NCBI GenBank assembly: GCA_024275095.1
Contig: JAJRZV010000078.1
Coordinates: 1 to 17,225, forward strand
Origin: a bacterium
Lineage (GTDB): Bacteria > JAJRZV01
Length of the DNA stretch: 17,225 nt
Reading direction: 5' to 3'
Positions 1-5,883 of the stretch are shown in pieces. The notes beneath the pieces are model-generated. The model searched no databases. It saw nothing but the letters and a program-made list of their open reading frames with translations, and was not told where the DNA came from. The position numbers and the translations under genes are program-made. Numbering within the stretch: position 1 is the stretch's first letter; every line of letters begins with the position of its first letter.

Positions 1-1108
1 ACACAGACATGCCTTCCGACTCCAGCACATCCCTCACCCTGGTACGCACGGCCTCTCCCATCTCGTGCGTCCCGACCACCTTGATGTCCTCTCCATGTGA
101 TGCCATATCACGCGTACGATAACCATCCTCCACTGTATGTTCTACGGCTTTACGAATAATACGCGCTGCATCTTCCGCGCCCAGGGAAACCTCCAGCATC
201 AAAGCTGCTGAAAGAATCATGGCCAGTGGATTGGCAATGCCCCGGCCGGCGATATCAGGGGCGCTTCCGTGCACGGGTTCATAAAGTCCCTTCATTCCTT
301 CACCAACAGATGCAGACGGCAGAAGTCCGATGGACCCACTGATCATTGCTGCCTCGTCACTGAGGATGTCGCCGAACATGTTGGGGCACAGCAGTACGTC
401 AAAATCCTTGGGACGGCGTATAAGCTGCATGGAGGCATTGTCCACATACATGTGTTCCACTTCCACGTCCGGATACTCTTCAGCCACCTGGTTCACCACG
501 TTTATCCAGAACCTGAAGGTTTCCAGCACGTTGGCCTTATCCACAGATGTAAGTTTTTTCCTTCGCCTGCGCGCCATTTGAAATCCCATGCGGGCAATGC
601 GAGTCACCTCGTCACGCGTGTAACGCAATGTGTTGTACCCTTCCGTATCACTCATTCCCCTGGGCCGGCCGTAATAAAGCCCGCCGGTCAGCTCCCTCAA
701 CACAACAAGATCAACTCCCTCAACAAGTTCTCGTTTGAGAGGAGAGGCACCGGCAAGAGCACTGTAAACGTGAACAGGACGGATGTTGGCATAAAGCCCC
801 AGTTCTTTACGCAAAGCCAGCAACGCAGCCTCCGGTCGAATTTCATAATCCACATCATCCCATGCCGGACCACCAACTGCTCCCAGCAAAACAGCATCAC
901 ATTTAGAAATCTCCTCGAGGTCTTCTTCCCGCAGTGGTCTGCCGTAGCGGTCAATCGCGGCTCCGCCGACAAGATACTCAGAAAAATAAAATTTAATCCC
1001 CAGGGAAGCCGATATTTCCTGCAGCACCCCCAGCGCTTCGTTCATCACTTCCGGGCCGATCCCGTCTCCGGGCAGAACGGCTATTTTGTACTCCTTTACC
1101 TTGCTCAT
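1..1108 (-). CDS. leuB: 3-isopropylmalate dehydrogenase, 3' end cut by window edge
   Basis: LeuB oxidatively decarboxylates 3-isopropylmalate to 2-ketoisocaproate with NAD in the leucine pathway. Translating the minus strand from ATG at 1108 gives an uninterrupted frame of 369 codons to the window edge, which is about full family length, so only a few C-terminal residues should be missing. Visible motifs in order are GDGIGPEV near the N-terminus, GAVGGP, an arginine-rich substrate segment ([20 protein letters not shown]), [19 protein letters not shown], the metal/substrate segment [12 protein letters not shown], and [17 protein letters not shown]. The start overlaps the leuD stop as ATGA, with a weak AGGG upstream, which points to translational coupling. 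The frame runs off the left edge, so no stop was seen. Confidence 0.96.
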
Positions 1109-1599
1109 CTTCCCTGCATCCTCTTTTTCATGTAGTTCATCAGGCCTCCCGCTTCAAGAATTTCTCTCATGAATTGTGGAATGGGCTTTGCACTGTATTC
1201 CTTGCCGGTGGACAGGTTTCGTACAACACCTGTATCAAGATCCACTTCCAATTCATCGCCTGTTTTTATTTCCACCGCTTCATCCAGCTCGAGCAAAGGC
1301 AGACCGATGTTGAAGGCATTACGGTAAAAAATACGTGCAAATGAGCGAGCGATGACAAGAGGCACACCTGCTGCTTTTATCGCAATAGGGGCATGTTCCC
1401 TTGACGAGCCACAGCCGAAATTTCTACCACCGACAATAATGTCACCTTGCTGAACCTTATTGGGAAACTCAGGGTCTGCATCCTCCATCACATGGCGTGC
1501 CAGTTCGGCAGGGTCAGAAGTGTTGAGGTATCGTGCAGGGATGATTACATCAGTATCAATGTTGTCTCCAAACGTCCAGGCTTTCCCTTTTATATTCAT
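1105..1599 (-). CDS. leuD: 3-isopropylmalate dehydratase small subunit
   Basis: LeuD is the swivel-domain subunit of isopropylmalate isomerase, which with LeuC converts 2-isopropylmalate to 3-isopropylmalate. The protein is 164 residues, the short form typical of the archaeal/thermophile-type enzyme that pairs with a LeuC of about 420 residues. Near the N-terminus it has [16 protein letters not shown], followed by [15 protein letters not shown], the signature loop that shapes the active site. ATG at 1599 follows an AAGGGGG Shine-Dalgarno four bases upstream. The stop TGA overlaps the leuB ATG. The reading frame is the same as that of leuC upstream: the leuC stop TAG is followed by four sense codons (Q G G R) and then the leuD ATG. 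Confidence 0.96.
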
Positions 1600-1611: not shown

Positions 1612-2883
1612 CTATGCACGGATATTGTCGGGATGTATTATATAACCTGCAACAGCCGATGCAGCCGCCACAGCCGGATTGGCCAGGTACACCTGAGACT
1701 TCGGATGCCCCATGCGACCGACGAAATTTCTGTTGGAAGTGGATATCGCCACTTCACCTTCCGCAAGCACCCCCATGTGTCCCCCCAAACAGGGACCGCA
1801 GGTAGGTGGACCAATAACAGCACCGGCCTCAACAAAAATTTCCATCAAGCCTTCCTTCAGGCAGCGCCGCCATATCTCCGGTGTAGCAGGGATGATGATA
1901 AGGCGTACTCCTTTACAGACCTTTCTGTCCTTGAGGATTTCTGCAGCAATCTTCAAATCACTGAACCATCCATTGGTACATGAACCTATGAACACCTGAT
2001 CTACAGCGATTTTCTCGCTTTCAACTTCCGAAACCGGAGACACATTACCAGGCGAATACGGTCGAGCCACGCACGGTTCCAGCTCGGAAAGATTCAATTC
2101 CACCACGCTGTGATAGGCGGCGTCAGAATCGCTCGAATACACCTTATAATCACGCTGAGCCCTCTTATTCACCCACTCCAATGTCACATCATCTGGCGGA
2201 ACGATGGCATTTTTCGCCCCGGCTTCCACACCCATGTTGCATATGGTCAACCGCTCCTCCACGCTGAAAGCGGCCATGCCGTCTCCTGTAAATTCCAGTG
2301 ACATATAGGTGGCACCGTCTGTACCGATGCGCCCTATAAGATGCAGTATCAGGTCTTTCCCATAAAACCACTGTAGTTTGCGTCCGTTCACATCAACACG
2401 AATTGTCGGTGGCACTTTGAGCCAGGTCTCACCCGTGGCCATGGCGTAGGCGATATCAGTACTTCCCACACCCGTTGAAAAGGCTCCAATACCTCCGTAA
2501 GTACACGTGTGAGAGTCAGCACCAAGTACAAGGTCACCCGGAAGCACAACGCCTTTTTCCGGAAGAAGTGCATGTTCCACGCCTACTTCCCCTATCTCAA
2601 AATACCACTTCACGTGCATATCATGTGCAAATCGTCGCACCATAAGCGCCTGTGTGGCAGCTTTTATGTCTTTATTGGGAGTAAAGTGATCAGGTACAAG
2701 TGCCACTTTTTCAGGATCAGCCAGCTTCTCTACACCCGCTTTTTTGAGATTCTCTATGGCAATGGGAGCAGTGATGTCATTGGCAAGGGCAAGGTCAACC
2801 TTCACCTGAACAATTTCACCCGGTGAAACACTATCGCGTCCCGCGTGGTCCGCAATAATCTTTTCACTTGCAGTCATTCCCAT
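1612..2883 (-). CDS. leuC: 3-isopropylmalate dehydratase large subunit
   Basis: LeuC is the iron-sulfur subunit of isopropylmalate isomerase. It belongs to the aconitase superfamily and is the short type (423 residues). Three cluster cysteines are visible, C302 in GSCTNGWFSDL and C362/C365 in GPPTCGPCLGGH, along with the substrate/cluster segment GADSHTCTYGG near residue 125. A homoaconitase paralogue is possible from sequence alone, but lying between leuA and leuD/leuB makes LeuC the best reading. I chose ATG at 2883 because AAGGAG sits 7 bases upstream (2891-2896). A GTG at 2889 overlapping the previous stop (GTGA) would add two residues. The stop is TAG, twelve bases before leuD. Confidence 0.95.
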   Translation of the reverse strand: MGMTASEKIIADHAGRDSVSPGEIVQVKVDLALANDITAPIAIENLKKAGVEKLADPEKVALVPDHFTPNKDIKAATQALMVRRFAHDMHVKWYFEIGEVGVEHALLPEKGVVLPGDLVLGADSHTCTYGGIGAFSTGVGSTDIAYAMATGETWLKVPPTIRVDVNGRKLQWFYGKDLILHLIGRIGTDGATYMSLEFTGDGMAAFSVEERLTICNMGVEAGAKNAIVPPDDVTLEWVNKRAQRDYKVYSSDSDAAYHSVVELNLSELEPCVARPYSPGNVSPVSEVESEKIAVDQVFIGSCTNGWFSDLKIAAEILKDRKVCKGVRLIIIPATPEIWRRCLKEGLMEIFVEAGAVIGPPTCGPCLGGHMGVLAEGEVAISTSNRNFVGRMGHPKSQVYLANPAVAAASAVAGYIIHPDNIRA

Positions 2884-2885
2884 AA

Positions 2886-3275
2886 TCACACTCCTTCGCG
2901 CACGGATTTTTTAGAATGCCGGCGGTACTGCAGGCGGTTAAGTGCGTTGACAAAAGCCTTGGCAGAGGCCACCACAATGTCCGTATGAGCTCCCCTGCCA
3001 ACAGCCACAACACCGTTTTCTTCAATGTATACACTTACCTTGCCCTGAGCATCAGTACCTCCGGTGATGGCGCTGACGCTGAACCTTTCAAGATGAACCT
3101 TTTCACCGGTAATTTTTTCTATAGCCCGGTACGTGGCATCCACGGGTCCATCACCAGTAGCGTATTCACGCCTGACCTTACCCTCCACTTCCATTTCCAC
3201 AGTGGCAAAAGGCATCATGTTGATTCCACACACCACATTCACGCTGAGAAGTTTGTATTTTTGAGGCAGGCGCAA
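2886..3275 (-). CDS. leuA: 2-isopropylmalate synthase regulatory domain, separate ORF after amber stop
   Basis: This is the C-terminal leucine-binding (LeuA_dimer) domain of 2-isopropylmalate synthase without its catalytic part. Family features are YKLLSVNVVCG at the start, ATGDGPVDATYRAIEKITG in the middle, ITGGTDAQGKV, and GRGAHTDIVVASAKAFVNALNR near the end. All 129 residues look intact. It is in the same frame as the catalytic ORF upstream, separated only by TAG GAA ATT. The first possible start is TTG at 3275, with AGGA from the stop region 4 bases upstream, so reinitiation would be needed if the TAG terminates. Alternatives are readthrough giving a 511-residue enzyme, a recent nonsense mutation, or a sequencing error. 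The stop TGA overlaps the upstream leuC start region. Domain identity is sure; separate expression is not. Confidence 0.72.
   Translation of the reverse strand: MRLPQKYKLLSVNVVCGINMMPFATVEMEVEGKVRREYATGDGPVDATYRAIEKITGEKVHLERFSVSAITGGTDAQGKVSVYIEENGVVAVGRGAHTDIVVASAKAFVNALNRLQYRRHSKKSVREGV
2891..2896 (-). promoter_or_regulatory. Shine-Dalgarno site of leuC
   Basis: AAGGAG on the minus strand lies 7 bases before ATG 2883 and inside the last codons of the LeuA regulatory domain. It favours ATG 2883 over the GTG at 2889, which would be too close. Confidence 0.7.
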
Positions 3276-3281
3276 AATTTC

Positions 3282-3284
3282 CTA
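3282..3284 (-). other. in-frame TAG splitting leuA
   Basis: The minus strand reads ATC GCC TAG GAA ATT TTG CGC. The frame of the catalytic ORF continues after TAG directly into the regulatory domain with no further stop until 2886. Replacing the TAG with any sense codon gives a LeuA of normal length (about 511 residues). TAG also ends leuC (1612-1614) and ilvB (7449-7451), so it appears to be a working stop in this genome. Confidence 0.95.
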
Positions 3285-4421
3285 GGCGATGAGCGCCTCG
3301 ATATCCTCGTCATACACCTCCTTTTTGTCCGCCAGGGCTTTAAACTTTCTGAACGCTTCCTGAAGCTGCTCTTCTGTCAGATTGTAGCCCATTGACTTCA
3401 CACGCTCCCTGAAAGCATGGCGCCCTGAATGTTTGCCGAGAACCAGCGCAGAAGATGGTACACCCACGTCTTCGGGTTTCATGATTTCGTAGGTGCTTTT
3501 CTCTTTGAGCACACCATCCTGGTGTATGCCTGCCTCGTGTGCAAACGCGTTGGCTCCAACAATTGCCTTGTTGGGCTGCACAGCAATTCCTGTAATTTGA
3601 GTAACCAGCCGCGACGTGGGATAAATCTGCCGTGTATCAATCCCGGTATAATAGCCGTACACATCCTTCCGCGTTTTCAGTAGCATCACAATCTCCTCGA
3701 GAGATGCATTGCCCGCGCGTTCGCCAATACCGTTCACAGTGCATTCCACCTGGCGTGCACCGGCCTTAACCGCAGCAATGGAATTGGCGGTGGCCAACCC
3801 CAAATCGTTATGACAATGAACGCTGATAATAACCCTATCTATGCCTTCAACTTCTGTACGTATTTTGCGTATAAGGCTCGCGTATTCCTCTGGAACGGTA
3901 TATCCCACCGTATCAGGGACATTAATCACCTTCACCCCTGCTTTTACCACTGCCTGAAAAATCCGGCAGAGAAAATCCGGATCGGAACGTGTCGCATCTT
4001 CCGCGGAAAACTCCACGTTTTCTGTATACGATAACGCCCTTTCCACAGCCTTGACCGACCGCTCCAGTACCTCATCCGGCTCCATGCGTAACTTGTGCTT
4101 CATGTGAATGGGACTCGTGGCAATGAAAACATGAATGCGTGGTTTTTTTGCATCCTTGAGCGCTTCCCACGCTCTGTCAATATCTTCATCGTTCGTGCGT
4201 GCAAGACCAGCCACTTCACAGTTGGTGACAACCTTTGCAACCTCTCTTACCGCTTCAAAATCTCCTTCCGAGGCAATGGGGAAACCCGCCTCTATCACAT
4301 CCACGCCGAGCCTCTCGAGCTGCTGGGCCACGCGGATCTTCTCCTCAATGGTCATGCTAAACCCCGGCGCCTGTTCGCCATCCCTGAGCGTGGTATCAAA
4401 AATGTAAACTCTATCAGCCAT
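3282..4421 (-). CDS. leuA: 2-isopropylmalate synthase catalytic part, ends at amber codon
   Basis: LeuA condenses 2-ketoisovalerate with acetyl-CoA to 2-isopropylmalate, the committed and normally leucine-inhibited step of leucine synthesis. This 379-residue ORF holds the TIM-barrel catalytic domain and the linker subdomain. Visible motifs are [12 protein letters not shown] (R13, D14), the metal-binding [22 protein letters not shown], and [12 protein letters not shown]. It ends at the linker with EDIEALIA and then TAG, whereas family members run to about 510-520 residues through a regulatory domain that here follows in frame. ATG 4421 gives the canonical [11 protein letters not shown] start with AGGAGG about 11 bases upstream; GTG 4433 lies on that site and was rejected. 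In studied orthologues, as I recall, removing the regulatory domain abolishes synthase activity, so this piece probably needs the downstream domain. Confidence 0.92.
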
Positions 4422-4456: not shown

Positions 4457-5260
4457 TCACTGCGGCCTCACCTCTTCGGGAGCCGGCACTTTGGACTCTT
4501 CAGAGACCGGGCGCCGCACAAGCGCCATAATACCTCCCACCAGACCCGAGAGGAAGTAAGCATAAGCAAATCCGAATAGCGCTTTTGCCGGCTCCGCTGA
4601 AATAAGAACAATGACAAGCACGACGAAAAACATTGATATGAAAGGCTTTCGTTTCAAAAGACCAAGGTCTTTAAAACTGGGGAAAGGGATATTGCTGATC
4701 ATCACAAAACTTATTACATACATGAGCACAATAAGCGCTATATGCAGCCACGGTCCCGGAGTCACTCCCAAGTCGCGGAAGATAAGTACAGTAGAGGCAA
4801 TGATACCTGCTGCACCAGGTGTAGGCAATCCTCGAAAAGAGGACTTTTCAACCGTACTGTATTGAAGGTTGAAGCGTGCCAGCCTGAGGGCTGCACACGC
4901 CACGTAAAGAAAGGCCCCCAGCCATCCCCATCGTCCATAAGGCTGAAGCACCCACAGGTATGCAAGCAGCGCCGGTGCAACCCCAAAGGAAATTAAATCA
5001 GCCAGGGAATCATACTGAACTCCAAAACCTGAAACACTCCTGGTCAACCGAGCCACACGGCCATCCATGCCGTCAAAGACGGCTGCAAGGAATATCGCGA
5101 TCGCAGCCTTGTGATACTCTCCCTTGATGCTGCTGATAATGGAAAAGAAGCCGAAAAAAAGGCCCAGGCTTGTGAGGAAATTCGGAAGTATGTAAACACC
5201 GCGTCTCGGTTCATCTACCGCACGAATACGTCTTTTCTTCTTCTTGTTGCTTGATTTCAC
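4457..5260 (-). CDS. pssA: CDP-diacylglycerol--serine O-phosphatidyltransferase
   Basis: PssA makes phosphatidylserine from CDP-diacylglycerol and serine at the inner membrane; the adjacent psd then makes phosphatidylethanolamine. The CDP-alcohol phosphotransferase signature is complete at residues 63-88: DGMDGRVAR, then a glycine, and two more aspartates in GVQYDSLAD. Several hydrophobic segments follow, ending with a proline/glutamate-rich tail. The N-terminus is very basic (KSSNKKKKRRIR). I prefer GTG at 5260 because GAGG (5269-5272) lies 8 bases upstream. GTG at 5269 overlaps the psd stop as GTGA and would add three residues, but it sits on the ribosome-binding site. There are 35 bases between its stop and leuA. 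Confidence 0.93.
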   Translation of the reverse strand: MKSSNKKKKRRIRAVDEPRRGVYILPNFLTSLGLFFGFFSIISSIKGEYHKAAIAIFLAAVFDGMDGRVARLTRSVSGFGVQYDSLADLISFGVAPALLAYLWVLQPYGRWGWLGAFLYVACAALRLARFNLQYSTVEKSSFRGLPTPGAAGIIASTVLIFRDLGVTPGPWLHIALIVLMYVISFVMISNIPFPSFKDLGLLKRKPFISMFFVVLVIVLISAEPAKALFGFAYAYFLSGLVGGIMALVRRPVSEESKVPAPEEVRPQ

Positions 5261-5265
5261 TTTTC

Positions 5266-5883
5266 TCACCTCGCTACCAAGGTTTCACCTGCCCTTACTC
5301 TATCTCCTTTCTTGACAATCACCTCCACGTTCGCAGGCATTATAAGGTCCACTCTTGAACCAAACGCAATGAGACCAACGCGTTCCCCCCTCTTTACCAA
5401 ATCTCCCGGGGTCTTGTAGAAAAAAATCCGTCGCGCAAAAGCGCCAGCCACCTGAACGAATTTAAAACGGGCGCCATCTTCTCTCTCGACCACAACTTCA
5501 TTTCGTTCGTTATGCATCTGGGCCTCATCTGTGTGTGCGATAAAAAAACGACCCCGGTGGTATCTGGTCTCCTTGATAGTTCCCGCTTCCGGCGCCCGGT
5601 TCACGTGTACGTCAAAGGCAGACATAAAAATGCTTACACATATTGCATCTTCTCCCACATCACCATCTGACACTTTATCCACTCTTATCACACGACCATC
5701 TGCAGGTGCCACATAACCGTGAGAACCCGGTACGGTCCGTTCCGGATCTCTAAAAAACCAGAGAGAAAACAGTGCCACAGCAGCAAAGGGAGCTGCCAGG
5801 AGTTTCATATTGAGCACATAAAAGAGTAAAGCAGGTAAAGCAGCTCCGAGAATAAATACATATCCGCGCCTGGCAATTCTCAT
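5266..5883 (-). CDS. psd: phosphatidylserine decarboxylase proenzyme, short archaeal-type
   Basis: Psd decarboxylates phosphatidylserine to phosphatidylethanolamine using a pyruvoyl group made by self-cleavage. The protein is 205 residues, the short form. An N-terminal hydrophobic hairpin (about residues 8-44) anchors it to the membrane, followed by FFRDPER, the conserved APADGRV, and DVHVNRAPE. The predicted cleavage site is Gly175-Ser176 within [12 protein letters not shown], giving a large beta chain and a 30-residue alpha chain bearing the pyruvoyl group. ATG 5883 overlaps the ilvC stop as ATGA, with AGGG a few bases upstream. The pairing with pssA makes the function clear. Confidence 0.94.
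5269..5272 (-). promoter_or_regulatory. Shine-Dalgarno site deciding the pssA start
   Basis: GAGG on the minus strand lies 8 bases before GTG 5260. It partly coincides with the alternative GTG at 5269, which argues against that start. Confidence 0.5.

Follow-up and report, generated by a model that had tools for sequence, protein, structure and literature searches.

Background

The gene described here resembles bacterial LeuA (TIGR00973/PRK00915) in carrying all of its domains, in its length of 511 residues and in its place in an ilv-leu operon ahead of leuC, leuD and leuB, but its codon 380 is an in-frame TAG, which no relative examined shares. Plants have natural relatives of LeuA that lack the regulatory domain, namely the methylthioalkylmalate (MAM) synthases and tomato IPMS3, and these demonstrate that its loss is viable (PMC8490860, PMC6635470); for a bacterial enzyme, Huisman et al. 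2012, as cited elsewhere, is credited with the result that removal of this domain disturbs substrate binding. The plant enzymes have lost the C-terminal leucine-feedback domain, whereas our leuA retains it, conserved and in the same reading frame, and the match of our sequence to MAM1 (6e1j) stops at residue 379. Single in-frame stops flanked on both sides by conserved protein, as seen in this leuA, have been described in bacteria by Belinky et al. 2021, who guarded against artefacts by admitting to their set only stops found in at least two genomes (PMC7918605); unlike those shared stops, the one in leuA is private to one sequence. Were it genuine, it would imply a feedback-decoupled or two-subunit LeuA.

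Results

The window, by which we mean the whole stretch of 17,225 nucleotides analysed (contig JAJRZV010000078.1 of assembly GCA_024275095.1), belongs to a draft genome of 2.45 Mb in 136 contigs that is 97% complete. On its minus strand, leuA runs from an ATG at 4421 to a TGA at 2888-2886 and reads as a 511-residue LeuA with a single internal stop. The 5' part (3285..4421), preceded by a strong Shine-Dalgarno sequence (aggaggtg), encodes residues 1-379, which comprise the TIM barrel, HCS_D2 and the first 12 residues of LeuA_dimer and correspond to positions 1-382 of the NCBIfam profiles PRK00915/TIGR00973. The TAG at codon 380 (3282..3284, minus strand) is followed by GAA ATT TTG, and from this TTG, codon 383 (3273..3275, minus strand) and a possible restart codon, a 129-residue frame stays open up to the terminal TGA. 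This 3' part (2886..3275, minus strand) holds the rest of the LeuA_dimer regulatory domain and matches profile positions 386-510, so that the two parts together make up one ordinary full-length LeuA. An HMGL-like catalytic barrel, HCS_D2 and LeuA_dimer all stand in one reading frame, as in other members of the family, and the gene departs from them in being interrupted at codon 380. Because the frame is long and homologous on both sides of the stop, and relatives align across the TAG with identities of up to 68%, its continuation is not a matter of chance.

The initial annotation had described this arrangement correctly, both in the codons around the stop and in the two recognisable halves that sum to a full LeuA, but its placement of the stop exactly between the catalytic and regulatory domains needs amending. 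Pfam assigns residues 287-367 to HCS_D2 and 368-497 to LeuA_dimer, which begins 12 residues before the TAG and has the TAG as its 13th residue; taken alone, the downstream frame enters the profile at position 20 of 131. The TAG sits close to the domain border, yet within the regulatory domain.

The surrounding gene order is ilvD-ilvB-ilvH-ilvC-psd-pssA-leuA-leuC-leuD-leuB, in which all names other than leuA and leuC were assigned by sequence recognition, and every frame except that of leuA is open. On the minus strand, leuC (1612..2883) is intact, with an ATG at 2883 in place of the GTG at 2889 chosen by the ORF caller, as is the putative leuD (1105..1599), and the putative leuB (2..1108) is open as far as the contig end. 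Genes resembling pssA and psd, of phospholipid synthesis, occupy positions 4457-5883 of the window between ilvC and leuA, inside a cluster for branched-chain amino acids.

We compared leuA with its counterparts in genomes that are related to the source at domain level only, among which the best matches are at most 68% identical and the best named ones fall in deltaproteobacteria-type drafts. None of the 109 aligned relatives has a stop before residue 498, each carrying one uninterrupted gene; where leuA was flagged as having one stop (G014, G016, G026 and G034), that stop proved to lie at or past the gene end. Codon 380 falls in a variable, mostly acidic column (Asp or Glu): it is a sense codon in nearly all of the 109, about 85% of which have GAC, GAA, GAT or GAG. 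In the nearest relative (L004, at 68% identity) the codon is GAG, which differs from TAG by a single base, and from a relative at that distance we infer that the codon before the change may have been the same. The initial annotation had held that a sense codon in all close relatives would speak against a genuine split; the 109 relatives largely show this, although the nearest of them is only 68% identical. The aligned column of TTG383 is arbitrary, with CTG, TAC, ATC, GTG and many more. The regulatory half is conserved normally, its C/N identity ratio ranking 56 of 110, and this comparison with other LeuA revealed no relaxed constraint on that half. Since the relatives are uninterrupted and the regulatory half is normally conserved, the stop is either very young or absent in reality.

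In 973 kb of the source genome (40% of 2.45 Mb), searched for coding frames that run on past a lone stop, Pfam placed isolated in-frame TAA, TAG or TGA codons inside one protein in at least 12 further conserved genes. In prfB, encoding RF2, a TAA (L145:1735-1737, equivalent to G000:C21:8711-8713) lies inside the PCRF domain, besides the normal +1 frameshift site gggggtatctttgac. On the same contig, dnaE (minus strand) has a TAA at residue 728 (L156:1989-1991 on G000:C21), where relatives mostly have Arg or Lys. Stops within a domain were also found in the [NiFe]-hydrogenase small subunit (TAA, L171:17629-17631, on contig C7; Glu in homologues), an aldehyde ferredoxin oxidoreductase, AOR (TAG, L222:19574-19576; Glu or Asp), lon (TAG, L162:15553-15555, equivalent to G000:C13:35553-35555; mostly Met), nadB (TAA, L209:10974-10976), a DAGK/YegS-like kinase (TAG, L206:18473-18475; Asn), a methyltransferase (TAA), an M50 protease (TAG) and a RhuM family protein (TGA), the residue at the prfB stop not being a fixed one. 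A biotin carboxylase has a TAG at an inter-domain border of one protein, and a TPR/cNMP (cyclic-nucleotide-binding) gene on the minus strand, likewise interrupted within a conserved domain, has two TAA codons (L207:1420-1422 and 2515-2517), of which the one at 1420-1422 is close to the end and is possibly the gene's proper stop. Further likely cases are a glucan-hydrolase-like protein with a TAG and a TPR/zinc-ribbon protein with a TGA. Several other candidates of the scan turned out to be, or had the look of, ordinary gene junctions, by Pfam for glnA-GATase, metK-ahcY and an outer-membrane-like protein running into a sigma factor, and by eye for a pilB-pilC type pair and thrS-infC.

Two control genomes, G012 (one contig, 400 kb scanned) and G019 (a draft, 369 kb), provided 769 kb in total and 20 candidates, mostly ordinary gene junctions, with no interrupted domain in G012 and one in G019, a DUF6206 gene that was the single control case with an interrupted look. 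The resulting 13 cases against 1 give P of about 0.003, or about 0.01 without leuA and prfB, which were dropped in a second test because both had drawn attention first; a weakness of the comparison is that, in the source and control genomes alike, the candidates behind these values were in part selected by eye. Isolated stops in essential single-copy genes are thus present in the source genome and exceed what the control genomes contain. Both dnaE and prfB are single copy, the former being the sole match in the genome at the threshold used. A complementary search for odd residues at invariant columns of leuA, leuC, ilvC and ilvH showed no excess, with fewer than one error expected there and hence no power.

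Discussion

The leuA TAG is probably a single wrong base in the draft, metagenome-type consensus, and among the four explanations offered by the initial annotation an assembly error is the best supported. What favours it is the company the stop keeps, for dnaE, prfB, lon, nadB, the gene of a hydrogenase small subunit and further genes are interrupted by isolated stops as well. Both DnaE and RF2 are essential proteins, and a cell with untranslatable stops in the two genes should not live; the stops in dnaE and prfB cannot, for that reason, all be real and inactivating. We infer that these stops are errors of the sequence rather than of the organism, and the simplest reading of those across the genome would be consensus substitution errors or rare private nonsense variants. 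By our computation about 4% of coding substitutions create a stop, and if random substitutions are the source, the error rate may be estimated at a few in every 10,000 bases. With such an error corrected, leuA would be an ordinary, uninterrupted gene with a sense codon at 380, probably Glu, and its product would be a normal leucine-regulated 2-isopropylmalate synthase made from an intact ilv-leu operon. In practical terms, a gene split or pseudogene in this draft needs the backing of reads before it is interpreted biologically, and such claims can be tested quickly by looking for in-frame stops in essential genes that occur in single copy.

The next best reading is a private nonsense variant, that is, a real and recent mutation, either fixed or a minority variant caught in the consensus, which would cut LeuA after residue 379 and bring leucine auxotrophy or loss of feedback. 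The GAG of the nearest relative is one step from TAG, both halves are still as well conserved as a very young change would leave them, and searches of the whole genome returned no match for fpg/mutM and none at the cut-off for mutY. The initial annotation was right to list such a mutation as possible, but we rank it below error and consider it unlikely: dnaE and prfB would need real nonsense mutations as well, which cells should not survive, and leuC, leuD, leuB and the ilv genes are all open. The best mutY match (C121:1802-2410, 232 aa) falls short of that cut-off and could represent an enzyme of the Nth type.

Programmed or suppressor-dependent readthrough, by which some full-length LeuA would be made, had also been put forward, and we regard it as very unlikely. 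A regulatory half as conserved as in relatives would suit it, as would the rarity of TAG, the least used stop in the genome (48 of 548 long ORFs), but the machinery does not point that way. RF1 is present above its curated cut-off, and the best PylS match scores 26.8 bits where the cut-off is 178, with 12 of 14 control genomes likewise giving matches below the cut-off. The genome has 43 tRNA matches, and no CTA, TTA or TCA anticodon occurs among those that ARAGORN decoded, so that the proposed search for a suppressor tRNA or pyrrolysine genes came back empty at these thresholds and pyrrolysine or other UAG recoding was set aside. No RNA structure was found downstream of the stop, where 84 nt fold like shuffled sequences (z 0.24), and in-frame backup stops after the 548 long ORFs show no clear excess (162, versus 141 and 151 out of frame). 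Nor does recoding fit the wider set: the leuA stop is not shared by relatives, and the mixture of Glu, Arg/Lys, Asn and Met at the interrupted sites led us to reject a single recoded residue. Given that all three stops occur and the residues differ, the interrupted sites do not represent a reassigned codon.

A natural two-subunit synthase, in which translation ends at the TAG and restarts at TTG383, is highly improbable on our reading. The TTG lies 6 bases past the stop with an AGGA 4 bases upstream of it, and NifV of Clostridium pasteurianum is reportedly a split relative within the LeuA family. Yet no split leuA occurs among the 109 relatives, TTG383 reads as an ordinary leucine codon in a column that varies among them, and the other interrupted genes of this genome have no such restart pattern (the hydrogenase stop, for example, reads TAA GGT GCA ATA). 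The AGGA is a short candidate ribosome site before a TTG that is not conserved, and it appears to be no sign of design, as the likely ancestral GAGGAA would serve equally well or better. Stop/TTG reinitiation, the first explanation in the initial annotation, is not supported. That the organism truly carries dozens of stops in conserved genes, dnaE, prfB and leuA among them, and copes with them through broad readthrough or restart of low specificity seems to us scarcely credible.

If the stops are consensus errors, as we favour, one might ask whether they share a chemical origin. Guanine oxidation during shearing produces G-to-T/C-to-A errors (PMC5521083), and a change of this kind would fit the stops in the hydrogenase, AOR and leuA genes; the dnaE stop may instead derive from a Lys codon, AAA to TAA. 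We did not adopt such a bias, which is only a possible source of the stops, and G-to-T/C-to-A changes make up 39% of one-step nonsense changes anyway.
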